This document shows, in pieces, positions 50,080 through 56,864 of a stretch of DNA of 64,000 bases; position 1 is the first letter of the stretch, and each line of letters begins with the position of its first letter. Location of the stretch: contig CAMBFI010000013.1 of assembly GCA_945865935.1 (NCBI GenBank), forward strand, positions 1-64,000. Reading direction: 5' to 3'. Made by a program: the position numbers and the translations under genes. The notes under the pieces were generated by a model. It made no database searches and was not told the DNA's origin. It saw only the letters and a program-made list of their open reading frames with translations. The stretch comes from Bordetella parapertussis. GTDB lineage: Bacteria; Pseudomonadota; Gammaproteobacteria; Burkholderiales; Burkholderiaceae_B.

Positions 50080-50832
50080 TCAGCGCTTGGGCCAGCCGAA
50101 CGGCGCTGCCCAGCCGGTATAGACTTTGGGCAATGGTGTCGCGTAGTCTCCGTGCTTGCTGGTGCCGAGCCTGAGCATCGCCAACGCCTCGGCGAACTTC
50201 ACCGCGACGGCTACCCCGTCAATGACAGGCACGCCTAGGCGTTCGGTTAAGGTCTGGCATAAGGTCGTCATGCCCGCACAACCCAGAACAATCGCACCGC
50301 TGCGATCACGGCTGAGCGCTTCGCGCGCTGTTTGTTCGATTTGATCAATGACGCCGCCACCCGCGTCCTCTAGGTCCAACACGGCAATATCCGTGCCGTG
50401 AACACCCCGGCAATGATGCTCAAAGCCATAACGCTGCACCAGCCTTTCGGCAATGATGCAGGTGCGGGTCATGGTCGTGACGACCGAGAAGCCGGTAGCG
50501 AGCATACTGGCAGCGTGAAACCCTGCCTCCGCGATACCTAGAACAGGTGCGCCCGTGATTTCCCGCGCGGCTTCTAGACCGGGGTCACCAAAACAGGCAA
50601 TGACCACGGCATCTGGTCTGGAATCGGCACCTGAATCTTGAGCCAGTCGAAGTTGCTCGGCCACCCCTGCGGCGGCGAAGGCCTCGTCATAGTGGCCTTC
50701 GATCGAAAGCGGTCCAAAACTTGGTTGCACCGCAACAATTTGCGTGCCTGGTGCAGCCACTGCCTGCGCACCCTGGGCGATAGCATGCGTCATCGGTGAA
50801 GAGGTATTAGGGTTTATGAGAAGTAGTTTCAT
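50080..50832 (-). CDS. Asp/Glu/hydantoin-type racemase
   Basis: Cofactor-independent racemase of the Asp/Glu family, nearest in pattern to hydantoin and allantoin racemases. The 250-residue protein starts MKLLLINPNTSSPMT, has the first catalytic cysteine in ACFGDPGL (about 82) and the second in LGCAGM (about 187). The ATG at 50832 is right for the family; the frame stays open upstream. It is divergent from the peptide-type ABC importer and its promoter region overlaps the NtrC-like sites. The substrate (hydantoin, allantoin or an amino acid) is not decided. Confidence 0.82.
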   Translation of the reverse strand: MKLLLINPNTSSPMTHAIAQGAQAVAAPGTQIVAVQPSFGPLSIEGHYDEAFAAAGVAEQLRLAQDSGADSRPDAVVIACFGDPGLEAAREITGAPVLGIAEAGFHAASMLATGFSVVTTMTRTCIIAERLVQRYGFEHHCRGVHGTDIAVLDLEDAGGGVIDQIEQTAREALSRDRSGAIVLGCAGMTTLCQTLTERLGVPVIDGVAVAVKFAEALAMLRLGTSKHGDYATPLPKVYTGWAAPFGWPKR

Positions 50833-50863
50833 ATGGATGGAATGGTTTACCTTACGCGTTGAG

Positions 50864-50869: not shown

Positions 50870-50925
50870 TGCACTAGGTTGGATAAAAATGCATCAAAAT
50901 GGATCGCCTGCACCAAAGTAGTTCA
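50870..50925 (+). promoter_or_regulatory. Tandem NtrC-like enhancer sites
   Basis: Three copies resembling the NtrC site TGCACCAAAATGGTGCA lie 19-20 bp apart. By eye, 50909-50925 (TGCACCAAAGTAGTTCA) matches 14 of 17 positions, 50890-50906 (TGCATCAAAATGGATCG) 13 of 17, and 50870-50886 about 10 of 17. Their centres are about 120-160 bp upstream of the predicted start of the sigma-54 promoter, the usual distance for NtrC enhancers. The match was made by eye and not scored against a matrix. Confidence 0.6.
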
Positions 50926-50969
50926 AGCGTATCCCGTCAGACGGAACCTTGCACGCAATTCCCTTGGTA

Positions 50970-50988
50970 TCATATTTAGTACGTATGA
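50970..50988. promoter_or_regulatory. Inverted repeat TCATA-N9-TATGA
   Basis: TCATA and TATGA are separated by 9 bp, containing ATA-N9-TAT, the form of LysR-type sites such as that of Nac. It lies between the NtrC-like sites and the sigma-54 promoter. Arms are short, so chance is a real possibility. Confidence 0.25.
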
Positions 50989-51012
50989 CATCCGAGCCGC
51001 CTAAGTTCGGTT

Positions 51013-51028
51013 TGGCACGATTTTTGCT
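51013..51028 (+). promoter_or_regulatory. Sigma-54 promoter of the peptide importer operon
   Basis: TGGCAC-GATTT-TTGCT matches the sigma-54 consensus (TGGCAC-N5-TTGCW) at every defined base, with the GG and GC dinucleotides 10 bp apart. Transcription would start near 51039, leaving a leader of about 150 nt before the binding-protein gene. In the rest of this 355-bp gap (50833-51187) I see no gene. Confidence 0.85.
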
Positions 51029-51187
51029 TAGCATCTCAGGCCAGGCTGCTTGGGCTGATATCACTTGGACAATACAAGAAATCAGACCCCGTCAGCATAA
51101 AAGTATCAGATTTGGCTTTTTAAAGTTTGTTTTTTGTTGCACAACCTATTTATATCTAACCGCGTCAACCGTACTTCTGGAGAACTC

Positions 51188-52864
51188 ATGAAACAACCGG
51201 CATTGATATCCCGTTTAATGGGCAAGCCTTTGGGGCTTACCGTGCTCACCGCGGCACTTGCGATCGCCTCTGCGATGCCCGCCTCGGCGCAAGAAAAAGT
51301 CTTGCGTATCGGCATGACCGCAGCAGACATTCCACGCACGCTCGGTCAGCCTGACCAAGGCTTCGAGGGTAACCGGTTTACCGGCATCCCAATGTACGAT
51401 GCCCTGACACAATGGGACCTCTCCAAGTCGGACGTGCCCAGTACCGTGATTCCTGGCCTGGCCACTTCTTGGGCCGTCGACGCCAACGACAAGAAAAAAT
51501 GGGTTTTCAAGCTGCGCCCAGGCGTTAAGTTTCATGACGGCTCGGCCGTCAATGCCGATGCCATCGTCTGGAACGTACAAAAAGTTCTTGATAAAGATGC
51601 CCCACACTTTGACGCCTCACAAGTCGGTGTCACTGCCTCGCGTATGCCTACGCTGCGCAGCGCAAAGAAAATCGACGACCTGACAGTAGAGCTCACCACT
51701 AGCGAGCCAGATGCCTTCTTGCCGATTAACCTGACCAACTTGTTTATTGCATCGCCAGCGCACTGGAATGCAAAGCTCAAGGCGGTTCCTGCTTCGGTTG
51801 CAGCGCCTGCTGAACGCGCCAAGCAAGCCTGGGCGGCCTTCGCCGCCGACGCCTCGGGTAGCGGCCCATTCAAGATGGCTCGCTTCGTTCCACGCGAGCG
51901 CATGGAGATGGTGGCGAATAAAGACTATTGGGATGACAAACGCAAGCCTAAAATAGACCGCGTGGTGTTGTTGCCCATTCCTGAAGCGAACGCCCGTACG
52001 GCAGCACTGCTGTCTGGTCAAGTGGACTGGATCGAAGCGCCTGCACCGGATGCCTTACCCCAGATCAAACAACGTGGCTTCAATATCTACAGCAACCCAC
52101 AGCCACACGTCTGGCCCTGGCAGTTGTCTTTTGCTGACGGCTCACCATGGGTTGACAAGCGCGTGCGTCAAGCGGCGAACCTTTGCGTCGATCGCGAAGG
52201 TCTGAAGACACTACTCGGCGGTTTGATGGGTATTCCAAAGGGCACCATGGCACCAGGACATCCTTGGTTTGGTTCGCCTTCGTTTGACATCAAGTACGAC
52301 GTAGCCGCTTCACAGAAGCTGATGACTGAAGCAGGCTTCTCTGCTGCCAAGCCCTTGAAAGTCAAGATTCAGATCTCGGCTTCCGGTTCAGGCCAGATGC
52401 AGCCTCTGCCCATGAACGAATTCGTTCAACAGTCGCTCAAGAAGTGCTTCTTTGATGTTGCGTTTGACGTGATCGAGTGGAACACACTCTTCACAAACTG
52501 GCGCAAGGGAGCAAAAGATCCTTCTGCAAACGGTGCAACGGCAACGAACGTCAGCTTCTCGGCGATGGATCCATTCTTTGGCATGGTTCGTTTCAGCAGC
52601 CAGGGTACCTTCCCACCTGTGTCAAACAACTGGGGCTACTATGCCAGCCCAGAAGTTGAGGCTTTAGTGGTGGCAGCCCGTACGACGTTTGACGACAAGC
52701 AACGTGACGCAGCGCTCGCTAAACTGCACACGCGTATTGTTGACGACGCACCGTTCGTCTGGATTGCGCATGACGTCGGTCCACGCGCCATGAGTAAGAA
52801 AGTGACAGGTGTCGTACAGCCACAAAACTGGTTTATCGATATTGCCACGATGAACTTGCAGTAA
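51188..52864 (+). CDS. Peptide-type ABC importer, substrate-binding protein (family 5)
   Basis: Periplasmic binding protein of the DppA/OppA group. The 558-residue protein has a signal peptide cut near residue 34 (MPASA|QE), then the family-5 fold with WVFKLRPGVKFHDGS, a hallmark of the group, and 'SGPFKMARFVPRERMEMVAN'. A good Shine-Dalgarno (TGGAGAA) precedes the ATG at 51188. The family takes up peptides but also nickel, heme precursors and other small compounds. The Ntr-type promoter suggests a nitrogen source. A hairpin follows the stop, which should raise its level above that of the permeases. Confidence 0.88.
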   Translation: MKQPALISRLMGKPLGLTVLTAALAIASAMPASAQEKVLRIGMTAADIPRTLGQPDQGFEGNRFTGIPMYDALTQWDLSKSDVPSTVIPGLATSWAVDANDKKKWVFKLRPGVKFHDGSAVNADAIVWNVQKVLDKDAPHFDASQVGVTASRMPTLRSAKKIDDLTVELTTSEPDAFLPINLTNLFIASPAHWNAKLKAVPASVAAPAERAKQAWAAFAADASGSGPFKMARFVPRERMEMVANKDYWDDKRKPKIDRVVLLPIPEANARTAALLSGQVDWIEAPAPDALPQIKQRGFNIYSNPQPHVWPWQLSFADGSPWVDKRVRQAANLCVDREGLKTLLGGLMGIPKGTMAPGHPWFGSPSFDIKYDVAASQKLMTEAGFSAAKPLKVKIQISASGSGQMQPLPMNEFVQQSLKKCFFDVAFDVIEWNTLFTNWRKGAKDPSANGATATNVSFSAMDPFFGMVRFSSQGTFPPVSNNWGYYASPEVEALVVAARTTFDDKQRDAALAKLHTRIVDDAPFVWIAHDVGPRAMSKKVTGVVQPQNWFIDIATMNLQ

Positions 52865-52960: not shown

Positions 52961-53914
52961 ATGCTGAGCTTTTTACTGAGGCGTCTGATTTACACCATGC
53001 CGATCATGCTTGGTGTCGCGCTTGTTTGTTTTTCTTTGGTGCACCTGGCACCCGGCGACCCGTTGATGGCGATTCTTCCACCTGATGCTTCGCAAGACTT
53101 GCGCGATAGGCTGATGGAGCTTTACGGGTTTAACCGCTCCTATCCAGAACAATTTTTTTCCTGGGTCGTGCGTGCACTGCAAGGCGATTTAGGGACCTCG
53201 ATCGCCTCGAATCGACCCGTCACCGACGAAGTGTTTAAAGCCGTCAAAAACACCTTACGTCTCGCTGTATTTGCGACACTGATTGGGTTTATATTTGGTT
53301 CCCTCTTCGGCTTTGTCGCGGGCTACTTTCAAAACTCTTGGATCGACAAGGCTGCCTCCTTGACGTCGGTCTTGGGCGTGAGCGTGCCCCACTACTGGCT
53401 AGGCATGGTCTTTGTGATCATCTTCAGTTCGACGCTAATGTGGTTACCCCCAAGCGGTGCGGGTCCCGGTGGCTCAGCAGACTGGGTCTGGAACCTTGAG
53501 CACATGAAGCATCTCATCCTGCCAGCGGTCACCATGAGCGTCATTCCCATGGGGATTATTGCGCGTACGGTTCGTGCGCTGGTGGCCGATATCCTTGCGC
53601 AAGAGTTCATCGTCGGTTTGCGCGCTAAAGGCTTAACCAACTTCGGCATCTTCGTTCACGTCGTCAAGAACGCAGCACCGACGGCTCTGGCCGTAATGGG
53701 TTTGCAACTCGGTTATTTACTTGGCGGATCGATCCTCATCGAAACCGTATTCTCTTGGCCTGGCACTGGATTTCTGTTGAACTCGGCAATTTTTCAACGT
53801 GATCTACCGCTACTACAGGGAACCATTCTTGTCCTTGCCATGTTTTTTGTTGTACTGAATATGATCGTCGACATCATTCAAACCCTGCTCGATCCTCGGA
53901 TCGCGCGTAGCTAA
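52961..53914 (+). CDS. Peptide-type ABC importer, DppB-like permease
   Basis: First inner-membrane permease. The 317-residue protein starts with the family opening LRRLIYTMPIMLGVALVCFSLVHLAPGDP, has about six membrane segments, and the EAA-type loop that contacts the ATPase (EFIVGLRAKGLTNFGIFVHVVKNA). Length and opening match DppB/OppB. It lies 96 bp after the binding protein because of the hairpin, and 18 bp before the next permease. Confidence 0.9.
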   Translation: MLSFLLRRLIYTMPIMLGVALVCFSLVHLAPGDPLMAILPPDASQDLRDRLMELYGFNRSYPEQFFSWVVRALQGDLGTSIASNRPVTDEVFKAVKNTLRLAVFATLIGFIFGSLFGFVAGYFQNSWIDKAASLTSVLGVSVPHYWLGMVFVIIFSSTLMWLPPSGAGPGGSADWVWNLEHMKHLILPAVTMSVIPMGIIARTVRALVADILAQEFIVGLRAKGLTNFGIFVHVVKNAAPTALAVMGLQLGYLLGGSILIETVFSWPGTGFLLNSAIFQRDLPLLQGTILVLAMFFVVLNMIVDIIQTLLDPRIARS

Positions 53915-53932: not shown

Positions 53933-54826
53933 ATGTTGAACATCACTGTCGACCCGACCAAAGTACCAGCCGTCATAACGGAGAAATCCACTGGCTACTG
54001 GCGTAATGTCGGACAACGTTTTATGCGGGACAAGCTAGCGATGTTCGCTGGTTTCATTATCTTGCTTTTGCTGATTATGGCGATCTTCGGGCCTTGGATT
54101 TCGCCCTATGACCCGTTTGCCTCATCGATCATGAAGCGACTCAAACCAATCGGTTTCCCAGGTCATTTACTGGGTACCGATGAACTCGGTCGCGACATGT
54201 TGACGAGACTCATTGTGGGCACCAAGCTGTCTCTGTTTATGGGGATTACGCCGGTGATCTTAGCCTTCTGTATCGGCTCAGTCATTGGGCTGATTGCGGG
54301 CTACGCAGGCGGCAAGCTCAACACGGTCATTATGCGGACGATTGACGTGTTTTATGCCTTCCCGTCTGTTCTACTGGCGATCGCCTTATCTGGAGTATTG
54401 GGTGCGGGCATTACCAATTCACTGATCTCCTTAACCATTGTGTTTATCCCGCCGATCGCTCGCGTTGCCGAGAGCGTCACGACCCAAATTCGAGGTCGTG
54501 ATTTTGTGGATGCGGCGCGCGCCTCTGGAGCAAACGCCTTCACGATTGTGCGCGTGCACGTCTTGGGTAACGTGCTTGGGCCCATCTTTGTTTACGCAAC
54601 AAGTTTAATTGCGGTCTCAATGATTTTGGCGTCGGGCTTAAGCTTCCTCGGGCTAGGTGTAAAGCCGCCAGAGCCAGAATGGGGCCTCATGCTTAATACT
54701 TTAAGGACGGCGATTTATGTCCAACCGTGGATCGCCGCGCTACCGGGCGTCATGATCTTCATCACGTCAATCGCTTTCAATCTGGTCTCTGATGGGTTGC
54801 GTACGGCCATGGAGATCAAAAACTGA
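53933..54826 (+). CDS. Peptide-type ABC importer, DppC-like permease
   Basis: Second permease. The 297-residue protein has the N-terminal cytoplasmic stretch and first membrane segment typical of DppC (DKLAMFAGFIILLLLIMAIFGPWISPYDPF), then HLLGTDELGRDMLTRLIVG, and the EAA loop (DFVDAARASGANAFTIVRVHVLGN). Its stop overlaps the start of the next gene (TGATG). Confidence 0.9.
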   Translation: MLNITVDPTKVPAVITEKSTGYWRNVGQRFMRDKLAMFAGFIILLLLIMAIFGPWISPYDPFASSIMKRLKPIGFPGHLLGTDELGRDMLTRLIVGTKLSLFMGITPVILAFCIGSVIGLIAGYAGGKLNTVIMRTIDVFYAFPSVLLAIALSGVLGAGITNSLISLTIVFIPPIARVAESVTTQIRGRDFVDAARASGANAFTIVRVHVLGNVLGPIFVYATSLIAVSMILASGLSFLGLGVKPPEPEWGLMLNTLRTAIYVQPWIAALPGVMIFITSIAFNLVSDGLRTAMEIKN

Positions 54827-55875
54827 TGGATACGACAGTGAAGAAGGAACCCGCTCCTGGTTCGGCACAACCTCTTTTAATGGTCAAGAATTTGATCAAA
54901 CACTTTGCCTTGAAAAAGGACGTGTTTGGCCGAGGCGGTGGTGTGGTGCGCGCCGTGGACGATATCGACTTTCTCGTGCGGCAAGGTGAAACACTGGGCG
55001 TGGTCGGTGAGTCAGGCTGTGGGAAATCGACAACCGCCAGGCTCTTGATGAATTTAACCCCCCCCGATCATGGCGACATCATCTTTGACGGTCACTCCGT
55101 TGGCGGCCGCGACTTGTCGCTCAAAGAGTTTCGGCGACAAGCGCAAATGGTGTTTCAGGATAGTTATGCGTCCTTGAACCCGCGCCTCACGATCGAGGAC
55201 TCGGTTGCTTTCGCGCCACAAGTGCACGGCGTGTCCAAAGACGATGCGGTCGAGCGCGCGCGCGACCTCTTAAGACGCGTCGGCTTAGATCCTAATCGCT
55301 TCGCGGAGCGCTATCCCCATGAATTGTCTGGCGGCCAACGGCAACGCGTCAACATCGCACGCGCCCTGGCGCTACAACCACGCCTCATCATCCTCGATGA
55401 GGCGGTATCGGCACTGGACAAGTCCGTCGAAGCGCAAGTACTTAATTTGCTCCTGGACTTGAAAGAAGATTTTGGCCTGACTTACGTCTTCATCAGTCAC
55501 GACCTGAACGTTGTGCGCTATATCTCCGATCGCGTGATGGTGATGTATCTCGGTCAAATTGTTGAAATCGGCGATTGCGAAACTCTATTCAAGCAACCCA
55601 AGCACCCCTACACGCGCGCCCTGCTCTCGTCGGTTCCGTCAATGGACCCCGACAACCGAACGGAAGAACCGCCGCTGTCGGGGGATCCGCCCAATCCCAT
55701 CAATCCCCCTTCGGGCTGTCGCTTTCACACTCGCTGCGTGCACGCACAAGCGATCTGTTCGCAGACGATGCCGGCCCTCGTCTCCGATACGGCCGGACAT
55801 GGTGTGGCCTGCCTCATGCATGTGGCGGGTAGTGGACACACCGATGCGCCGCGCGCTGCGCAGGAGGTCGCATGA
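54826..55875 (+). CDS. Peptide-type ABC importer, DppF-like ATPase
   Basis: One of two ATPases. The 349-residue protein has Walker A GESGCGKS (61-68), the signature LSGGQRQR, and the C-terminal oligopeptide-transporter segment with cysteines (CRFHTRCVHAQAICSQ), which in related proteins binds an iron-sulfur cluster. Walker B reads LIILDEAVSALDKS; most relatives have DEP and D-V-S, so the Pro to Ala and Val to Lys changes are unusual, but the catalytic Glu is kept. Overlaps the next gene by 4 bp. Confidence 0.9.
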   Translation: MDTTVKKEPAPGSAQPLLMVKNLIKHFALKKDVFGRGGGVVRAVDDIDFLVRQGETLGVVGESGCGKSTTARLLMNLTPPDHGDIIFDGHSVGGRDLSLKEFRRQAQMVFQDSYASLNPRLTIEDSVAFAPQVHGVSKDDAVERARDLLRRVGLDPNRFAERYPHELSGGQRQRVNIARALALQPRLIILDEAVSALDKSVEAQVLNLLLDLKEDFGLTYVFISHDLNVVRYISDRVMVMYLGQIVEIGDCETLFKQPKHPYTRALLSSVPSMDPDNRTEEPPLSGDPPNPINPPSGCRFHTRCVHAQAICSQTMPALVSDTAGHGVACLMHVAGSGHTDAPRAAQEVA

Positions 55876-56864
55876 ACGACGAAAAAACATTCTTGGATAT
55901 TCGTGATCTCACGGTGACATTCACAGGAGGTCGCAAGCCTGTGCGTGCGGTATCCGGCGTTAATTTAAAAGTGAAGCGCGGCGAAGTGGTCGCGCTGATT
56001 GGCGAATCCGGCTCAGGAAAAAGCGTCACGCTGCGTTCTATTCTGCGACTGCACAATCCGTCTCGCTCAGTATTGGAAGGACAAATCTTGGTGGGCGACC
56101 AAGACGTCGTGAAGCTCTCGGATTCCGAGTTGTCGGCATTTCGTGGCAAAGTGGCCTCGATGATTTTCCAAGAGCCGCTTCTCGCGCTTGATCCAGTTTA
56201 TACAGTCGGTGAGCAGATCACCGAAGCCATCCTGCGGCACGAGAACATCAGTAAGGAACAGGCACGTGCGCGTGCGCTATCGCTTTTTGAGCGCGTACGC
56301 ATTCCGAGCCCTGAACGTCGTCTTGATGCTTACCCTCATGAAATGTCAGGGGGCATGCGTCAACGCGCCATGATTTCACTAGCGCTGGCAAGCGAACCGC
56401 AACTGCTCCTCGCAGACGAACCCACTACGGCGCTCGATGCCACGGTGCAGATTCAAATTCTGCTCTTGTTGCGTGAATTGCAGCGTGAACTTGGTCTGTC
56501 GGTTGTATTTGTGACGCATGATATCGGCGCAGCCGTTGAGGTCGCTGACCGCATTGCCGTCATGTATGCAGGACGCATCGTCGAGCAAGGGACGACACGA
56601 ACGCTCATGCGCTCACCTCGTCACCCCTACACACGCGCCTTGCTTAAAAGTTTGGCCCATGGCTCAGTCAAGAAGGGAACGCGCTTGGAAACCATTTCAG
56701 GCTCTCCTCCGGACCTGAGCAATCTGCCGCCAGGATGTGTGTTTGCAGAACGCTGCGGCTTGGCGACTGACGACTGCAGAAAAGCGCTGCCTGAAACAAT
56801 CTGGCTCACTGAAGATCACAGCGCCAGATGTTTCAGGGTAGACCAGACGCTGCAGCCTGTGTAA
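55872..56864 (+). CDS. Peptide-type ABC importer, DppD-like ATPase
   Basis: Second ATPase. The 330-residue protein has Walker A GESGSGKS (44-51), signature MSGGMRQR, Walker B LLLADEPTTALD, and the C-terminal Cys segment (GCVFAERCGLATDDCRKALPE). Unlike in many dpp operons the DppF-like gene comes first and the DppD-like gene last. It is the last gene of the operon and ends 33 bp before the convergent clpB stop; no clear terminator is seen there. Confidence 0.9.
   Translation: MNDEKTFLDIRDLTVTFTGGRKPVRAVSGVNLKVKRGEVVALIGESGSGKSVTLRSILRLHNPSRSVLEGQILVGDQDVVKLSDSELSAFRGKVASMIFQEPLLALDPVYTVGEQITEAILRHENISKEQARARALSLFERVRIPSPERRLDAYPHEMSGGMRQRAMISLALASEPQLLLADEPTTALDATVQIQILLLLRELQRELGLSVVFVTHDIGAAVEVADRIAVMYAGRIVEQGTTRTLMRSPRHPYTRALLKSLAHGSVKKGTRLETISGSPPDLSNLPPGCVFAERCGLATDDCRKALPETIWLTEDHSARCFRVDQTLQPV

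Follow-up and report, generated by a model that had tools for sequence, protein, structure and literature searches.

Background

Control of ABC importers of the type considered here by NtrC and sigma-54 is already established, for instance in the ddpXABCDF operon of Escherichia coli, where genes for a D-Ala-D-Ala dipeptidase and an importer lie behind an NtrC-dependent sigma-54 promoter with the NtrC box TGCACCAnnnTGGTGCA (PMC8743547). In beta-proteobacteria, NtrC regulons extend to nitrogen-scavenging genes (PMC5343134, PMC5491218); that of Burkholderia cenocepacia includes a dipeptide-binding ABC component, allantoicase, a urate oxidase cluster and beta-ureidopropionase (PMC5491218), and in Paraburkholderia phymatum there is a hydantoinase operon with an RpoN site (PMC5979394). 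A 2025 survey reports an enrichment of sigma-54 promoters, chiefly in alpha-, beta- and gamma-Proteobacteria, for the hydantoin racemase COG4126 and the Dpp-type importer COGs 0747, 0601, 1173, 0444 and 4608 (PMC12316311). That survey is statistical, and in the available portion of its text the importer and the racemase are not linked as a module, nor is NtrC named for them.

The locus described here lies in a window of 64,000 nucleotides, by which we mean the whole stretch of DNA that was analysed, and resembles ddpXABCDF in being an ABC importer operon behind what is likely an NtrC-dependent sigma-54 promoter. It differs in that there is no dipeptidase, a hydantoin-type racemase being found instead, and in that a peptide-binding residue of DppA is missing from its binding protein. 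Its likeness to the B. cenocepacia regulon is one of gene lists. In the titles of the open-access literature matches listed, a set to which subscription journals mostly do not belong, the importer is not named.

Organization of the importer locus

The five genes of the operon code for a complete Dpp/Opp-type importer, comprising a family-5 binding protein (the family to which, we assume, DdpA of E. coli also belongs), two permeases and two ATPases (Table 1). The gene on the other side of the spacer is divergently transcribed, and its product matches the structures 3qvj_A (annotated as a "putative hydantoin racemase"; E 1e-75), which we take to be Klebsiella HpxA, an allantoin racemase, and 5lfd_A (allantoin racemase; E 3.7e-48). 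Both racemase cysteines are present and align with those of 3qvj, which are serine in 3qvk. Judged by these alignments, the product appears to resemble the HpxA-type allantoin/hydantoin racemases.

Table 1. Features of the racemase-importer region, in window coordinates
Feature	Coordinates	Strand	Remarks
Divergent Asp/Glu/hydantoin racemase	50080..50832	-	PF01177, 183 bits; ATG at 50832
NtrC-like site A, TGCACTAGGTTGGATAA	50870..50886	+	10/14
NtrC-like site B, TGCATCAAAATGGATCG	50890..50906	+	10/14
NtrC-like site C, TGCACCAAAGTAGTTCA	50909..50925	+	12/14; strongest of the three
Sigma-54 -24/-12 promoter core, TGGCACGATTTTTGCT	51013..51028	+	exact TGGCAC-N5-TTGCT; GG at -24 and GC at -12 with the right spacing
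Predicted 5' untranslated leader, expected start site to ATG	51039..51187	+	start site predicted from the core
Family-5 solute-binding protein	51188..52864	+	558 aa; PF00496, 245.8 bits
ABC permease, DppB/OppB-type	52961..53914	+	PF00528, PF19300
ABC permease, DppC/OppC-type	53933..54826	+	PF00528, PF12911
ABC ATPase, DppF-type	54826..55875	+	PF00005, PF08352; best NCBIfam model NF008453, below cut-off
ABC ATPase, DppD-type	55872..56864	+	PF00005, PF08352; best NCBIfam model NF008246, below cut-off

The sigma-54 core and its conservation

The core upstream of the binding protein gene is the only exact match to TGGCAC-N5-TTGCT in the window, and together with its flanks (TTGGCACGATTTTTGCT) it attains a score of 16/16. 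When one mismatch is allowed the window contains three cores, against a chance mean of 1.99, and three or more were seen in 32 of 100 shuffles. As one-mismatch cores occur at chance level, the case for this core rests on its exact match and on its conservation. In the whole 3.25 Mb genome the pattern TGGCACGN4TTGCT is found four times, versus once for the reversed pattern.

To gauge conservation, importer homologues were collected from a named collection, from which the best 80 of 585 candidates were kept, and from genomes of the same family, where 39 of 200 were matched (own genome included) and 30 loci were fetched of 42 matches listed, the 12 weaker being left out. The resulting 110 loci were reduced to 98 by removing those with less than 300 bp upstream, or with the last 200 bp identical to an earlier locus, and then to 95 by removing the distant paralogues L137-L139. 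A core scoring at least 14/16 is found upstream of the importer in 90 of these 95 distinct loci, own included; these regions are mutually related and hence do not represent 95 independent events. The same threshold is reached on the opposite strand of the same regions in 5 of 95 cases, by 50 of 2960 control pieces of 450 bp taken from elsewhere in these loci, with each strand counted separately, and by 2.5% of 1900 shuffles. Upstream regions lacking such a core are those of L049, L061, L071, L095 and L107, and the counted match in L046, which lies 17 bp from the ATG, is probably due to chance. The three distant paralogues (48% identity) are without a core, their best scores being 11.5, 13.0 and 11.0.

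The NtrC-like array

Upstream of the core lie three tandem NtrC-like sites, which were scored against the consensus TGCACCAnnnTGGTGCA with its 14 fixed positions, the same consensus as that given in PMC8743547. Site C is one of two sites in the window that score at least 12; in sites A and B the left half matches well and the right half poorly. The summed score of the array, 32/42, was reached in none of 5000 dinucleotide shuffles (shuffle maximum 28), and there is no second array scoring at least 28 elsewhere in the 64-kb window. The loose pattern TGCACN4TNGTGCA with up to three mismatches gives 240 matches in the window versus 228 expected. Because sites of the loose pattern are thus not enriched, single weak NtrC-like sites carry no meaning by themselves, whereas the array does.

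The initial annotation had recognized both elements in the DNA, and its exact TGGCAC-N5-TTGCT core is indeed present. Likewise, the 19-20 bp intervals that it gave for the sites agree with the 20 bp (A to B) and 19 bp (B to C) measured here. Its estimate that the sites lie about 120-160 bp upstream of the predicted start is about right, as the end of the array is 88 bp from the core and the expected start site is 114-169 bp downstream of the array. It had further described two strong 17-mers and a third weaker one; the coordinates and the array itself stand, and the ranking has to be revised to one strong site (at 50909) and two partial ones.

In an alignment of the Zwartia clade, consisting of 14 rows (own included) picked by hand from the closest relatives, the DNA between array and core varies in sequence and length, and both elements persist. 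Site A is kept in most rows and lost in L037 and L038, and site B reads TGCCCCAAAATGG in several relatives; further shared stretches include the racemase start and the ribosome-binding region. As far as can be judged from the alignment, the conserved array and core have the look that would be expected of an enhancer and its promoter. In the broader set, from which one further region was dropped for this count, the best NtrC palindrome scores at least 9/10 in 14 of 94 regions versus 1.3% of shuffles, and at least 8/10 in 44 of 94 versus 13.7% of shuffles. In the remaining 50 regions it scores only 6 or 7, like most shuffles, so that beyond the Zwartia clade the role may fall to other activators, or to sites that escaped recognition.

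A fourth TGCAC half-site is present at window positions 50950-50954; it lies downstream of site C by 41 bp, roughly twice the spacing of the sites. It is also found in the closest relative, L030, and is absent from L031-L036.

The candidate activator and the predicted genome-wide sigma-54 regulon

The genome (3.25 Mb in 54 contigs, 97.4% complete) has one rpoN gene (PF04552, 196.8 bits; TIGR02395, 422.5 versus a cut-off of 277.35). The sigma-54 activator domain PF00158 has five matches, one of 235 bits and four of 22-33 bits, and one of the weak ones falls in a 900-aa ORF of the window itself that we read as ClpB-like. The strong match is NtrC according to the equivalog model TIGR01818 (684.3 versus a cut-off of 558.6), and its gene adjoins that of NtrB (NF008293, 310.2 versus a cut-off of 240). 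With a single strong activator in the genome, NtrC is the sole candidate found for opening the importer promoter; given the 97.4% completeness, a second activator could be missing from the assembly. Of the 21 genus genomes compared, 16, own included, contain a single strong PF00158 match. The exceptions are four genomes with two to six (six in G211, three in G205, and two each in G184 and G144) and one fragmented assembly, 89% complete, with none. With one strong sigma-54 activator in a genome, predicting and testing the regulon is straightforward.

The pattern TGGCAYN5TTGCW has 27 matches in the genome, versus 8 for the reversed control. Eighteen of these are inside ORFs of at least 120 aa, not all of which are necessarily genes, and nine are intergenic, including one on contig C44 that overlaps a reading frame solely when its own downstream gene is extended to an earlier start. 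The intergenic sites lie before a TorF-type porin gene (above cut-off), downstream of which are a P-II-like gene, scoring just under the cut-offs, and what we read as an ammonium transporter gene; before glnA and before a second P-II-like gene (both names being our reading); before three family-5 importers, including the importer of the window; and before a gene read as a Bug-type binding protein, which is followed by a relative, below cut-off, of the allantoinase PuuE. The last two face each other between a divergent Amdase-family gene and a dihydropyrimidinase gene. In the region 20-220 bp upstream of seven of the nine sites there is a palindrome of NtrC type scoring 8/10 or more, and the facing pair is without any. 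The glnA promoter of the same genome (G000:C5) has a layout similar to that of the importer, with the core TGGCACAAAACTTGCT and three NtrC-like sites at intervals of 19 and 22 bp; its sites differ in being nearer to the palindrome (10, 9 and 9 of 10) and nearer to their core (58-99 bp upstream) than those of the importer.

The two facing cores are 12 bp apart (G000:C6:138362-138405, about 8363-8406 of L182), such that transcripts from them would overlap at the start. A second family-5 importer, on C44 (G000:C44:1-9572, L183), has a sigma-54 core, an NtrC-like site at -124 and, as neighbours, genes for an amidohydrolase-family protein (below cut-off), M20-type hydrolases and a distant relative of N-carbamoylputrescine amidase.

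What the importer carries

The initial annotation took the operon for a peptide importer, which now appears doubtful in view of the binding protein, of the racemase neighbour and of the ureide-type enzymes encoded upstream. No listed NCBIfam model reaches its cut-off for any of the five subunits (for the two ATPases, among the best 25 listed), and the curated DppA model NF043070 failed with 84.5 bits versus a cut-off of 1005. In DppA the dipeptide is bound at its N-terminus by D436 and at its C-terminus by R383, both numbered on the precursor (PMC3295651, PMC12136057); in the mature chain these are Asp408 and Arg355. Asp408 aligns with Thr453 of the protein in phmmer, MAFFT and hhalign alike, and in the MAFFT alignment this column contains 52 Thr, 52 Ile, 3 Val and 2 Leu among 109 homologues, and no Asp. 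The set of 109 was drawn from the 110 loci, and contains the protein itself, same-genome duplicates from the two collections and the distant paralogues. Opposite Arg355 no Arg is aligned, the residue found there differing by aligner (Gly400 in phmmer, Val392 in MAFFT and Ile in hhalign). Over 31 members with 75-95% identity to the protein of the window, mean column identity is 85%, and this uniformity of the subfamily suggests that it has one type of ligand.

Gene neighbourhoods were surveyed with tblastn, using ten queries from this genome, at the 73 of 80 named-collection loci that have at least 900 bp upstream. A ureide-type enzyme is encoded upstream in 52 of the 73, and none is found with these queries in the other 21. 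It is a racemase in 45 of the 52, window-type (at least 55% identity) in 29 of these, and in the other seven an M20 carbamoylase/allantoate amidohydrolase, accompanied in two cases by a PuuE-type allantoinase; in L048 both PuuE and allantoate amidohydrolase are above curated cut-offs. Since the count is without a matched control, and since 21 of 73 loci are blank, we give the ureide/hydantoin reading moderate weight only. The structure model of the binding protein is mediocre (mean pLDDT 67), with values below 50 at 395-403 and 427-460, the spans that hold the residues discussed above, and its PDB matches, among the 50 listed, are to peptide, metal, opine, sialic acid and other binders, so that the structure does not fix the substrate.

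On balance, the residues and the neighbourhoods lead us to favour a ureide or hydantoin over a peptide as the substrate. We tentatively propose that this is a dedicated ureide/hydantoin ABC importer within a family usually labelled "peptide", forming one closely conserved Burkholderiales group that is wired to NtrC together with an adjoining hydantoin-type racemase or carbamoylase. If this is true, the Zwartia sigma-54 regulon would be a small, one-activator nitrogen regulon weighted towards the scavenging of ureides and hydantoins. As these compounds are nitrogen-rich, the transporter could matter for nitrogen cycling in freshwater. The novelty is modest, and consists of the probable ureide substrate and of the single-activator regulon. 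The analysis also cautions that the label "peptide importer" is probably wrong.

In L054, L057, L058, L060 and L100, which belong to Pseudorhodoferax, Variovorax and Hylemonella, an M20 hydantoinase/carbamoylase-type gene is found upstream in the place of the racemase.

Weighing of alternative explanations

One alternative keeps the NtrC/sigma-54 switch and takes the operon for a genuine importer of di- or oligopeptides. All five subunits do belong to the Dpp/Opp/Nik superfamily, the best sequence and fold relatives of the binding protein in the PDB include DppA and GbpA, and the NtrC-sigma-54 target ddpXABCDF is itself an importer of D-Ala-D-Ala (PMC8743547); against this stand the failure of every listed NCBIfam model (the DppA model included), the replacement of Asp408 by Thr, Ile, Val or Leu in 109 of 109 homologues, the lack of an Arg opposite Arg355 (in a column that varies between aligners) and the ureide-type neighbours of 52 of 73 loci, and we regard a peptide substrate as unlikely. 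A somewhat better chance, though still a clear minority one, is given to the array being a shared enhancer, from which NtrC would activate the importer via sigma-54 and control the divergent racemase gene too. Such shared control of both genes is possible because the array is 38-93 bp upstream of the racemase ATG; it stays near this ATG in the clade, and a window-type racemase lies upstream in 29 of 73 loci. On the other side, a second sigma-54 element facing the racemase was sought and rejected, the best minus-strand score in the spacer being 10.5/16, and a sigma-70 promoter was likewise rejected, as none was found when both strands of the spacer were scanned.

That a different activator drives the sigma-54 promoter, with the NtrC-like array being incidental, seems improbable. 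The incompleteness of the assembly, the more than one strong activator in 4 of 21 genus genomes and the 50 of 94 upstream regions with a palindrome no better than that of shuffles leave some room for it, but the sole strong activator found here is NtrC, exactly one strong match is the state of 16 of 21 genus genomes, and the clade largely retains the array, which no shuffle reproduced. That the elements match loose consensus sequences by chance might be suspected from the numbers of single weak NtrC-like sites and one-mismatch cores, neither of which departs from expectation, and from the location of 18 of the 27 genome-wide core matches inside ORFs of at least 120 aa; this explanation is contradicted by the core in 90 of 95 upstream regions and by the shuffle statistics of the array, and we consider its probability negligible. 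The reading offered by the initial annotation, namely an NtrC-activated sigma-54 promoter, is thus upheld by the exact core, by an array that is not random, and by conservation, which extends across the relatives for the core and across the Zwartia clade for the array; it is also backed by the single rpoN, by the single strong activator being NtrC, and by the nitrogen-type genes behind the other intergenic sites. This provides a well-supported regulatory annotation for an uncharacterised importer that is common to many Burkholderiales.

Proposed mechanism

Taken together, these observations make it likely that an NtrC-activated sigma-54 promoter drives the operon and that the importer probably serves a ureide- or hydantoin-type nitrogen compound. 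NtrC-driven induction of the importer under nitrogen limitation is the best reading of the analysis, the nitrogen dependence being predicted because it is established NtrC biology. Under nitrogen limitation NtrB would phosphorylate NtrC, and dimers of NtrC-P would occupy sites A to C (50870-50925), which are in phase, and form oligomers there. A DNA loop over about 90-140 bp would bring NtrC-P to the sigma-54 RNA polymerase parked at 51013-51028, which NtrC-P would open at the expense of ATP. Transcription would then proceed from near 51039, with a leader of about 150 nt, through the genes for the binding protein, the two permeases and the two ATPases. The imported compound, presumably of ureide or hydantoin type, might be degraded with the help of the divergent racemase and of other hydrolases linked to sigma-54.

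The leader and the rest of the spacer

The leader contains a ribosome-binding site, GGAG, at 51179-51182. The idea of a riboswitch or other RNA leader was rejected, as there was no Rfam match up to an E value of 1 and the predicted fold of the leader is unremarkable, being no better than that of shuffles (z 0.89). A terminator-like hit at 50992-51015, which overlaps the core, was taken as noise (one hit versus 0.5 expected), and a plasmid copy of the spacer was sought and gave no match.

Two further short stretches of the spacer recur among the closest relatives. The leader stretch TAAAAGTATCAGATTTG (window 51098-51114), which has no Rfam match, is present in seven of the eight closest rows of the clade alignment and is missing from L031. 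Between the racemase ATG and the NtrC array, at window 50844-50853, there is a conserved block, GGTTTACCTT, which takes the form GGTTTA-CTT in the eight closest rows and may be part of the promoter or of the ribosome-binding region of the racemase gene.
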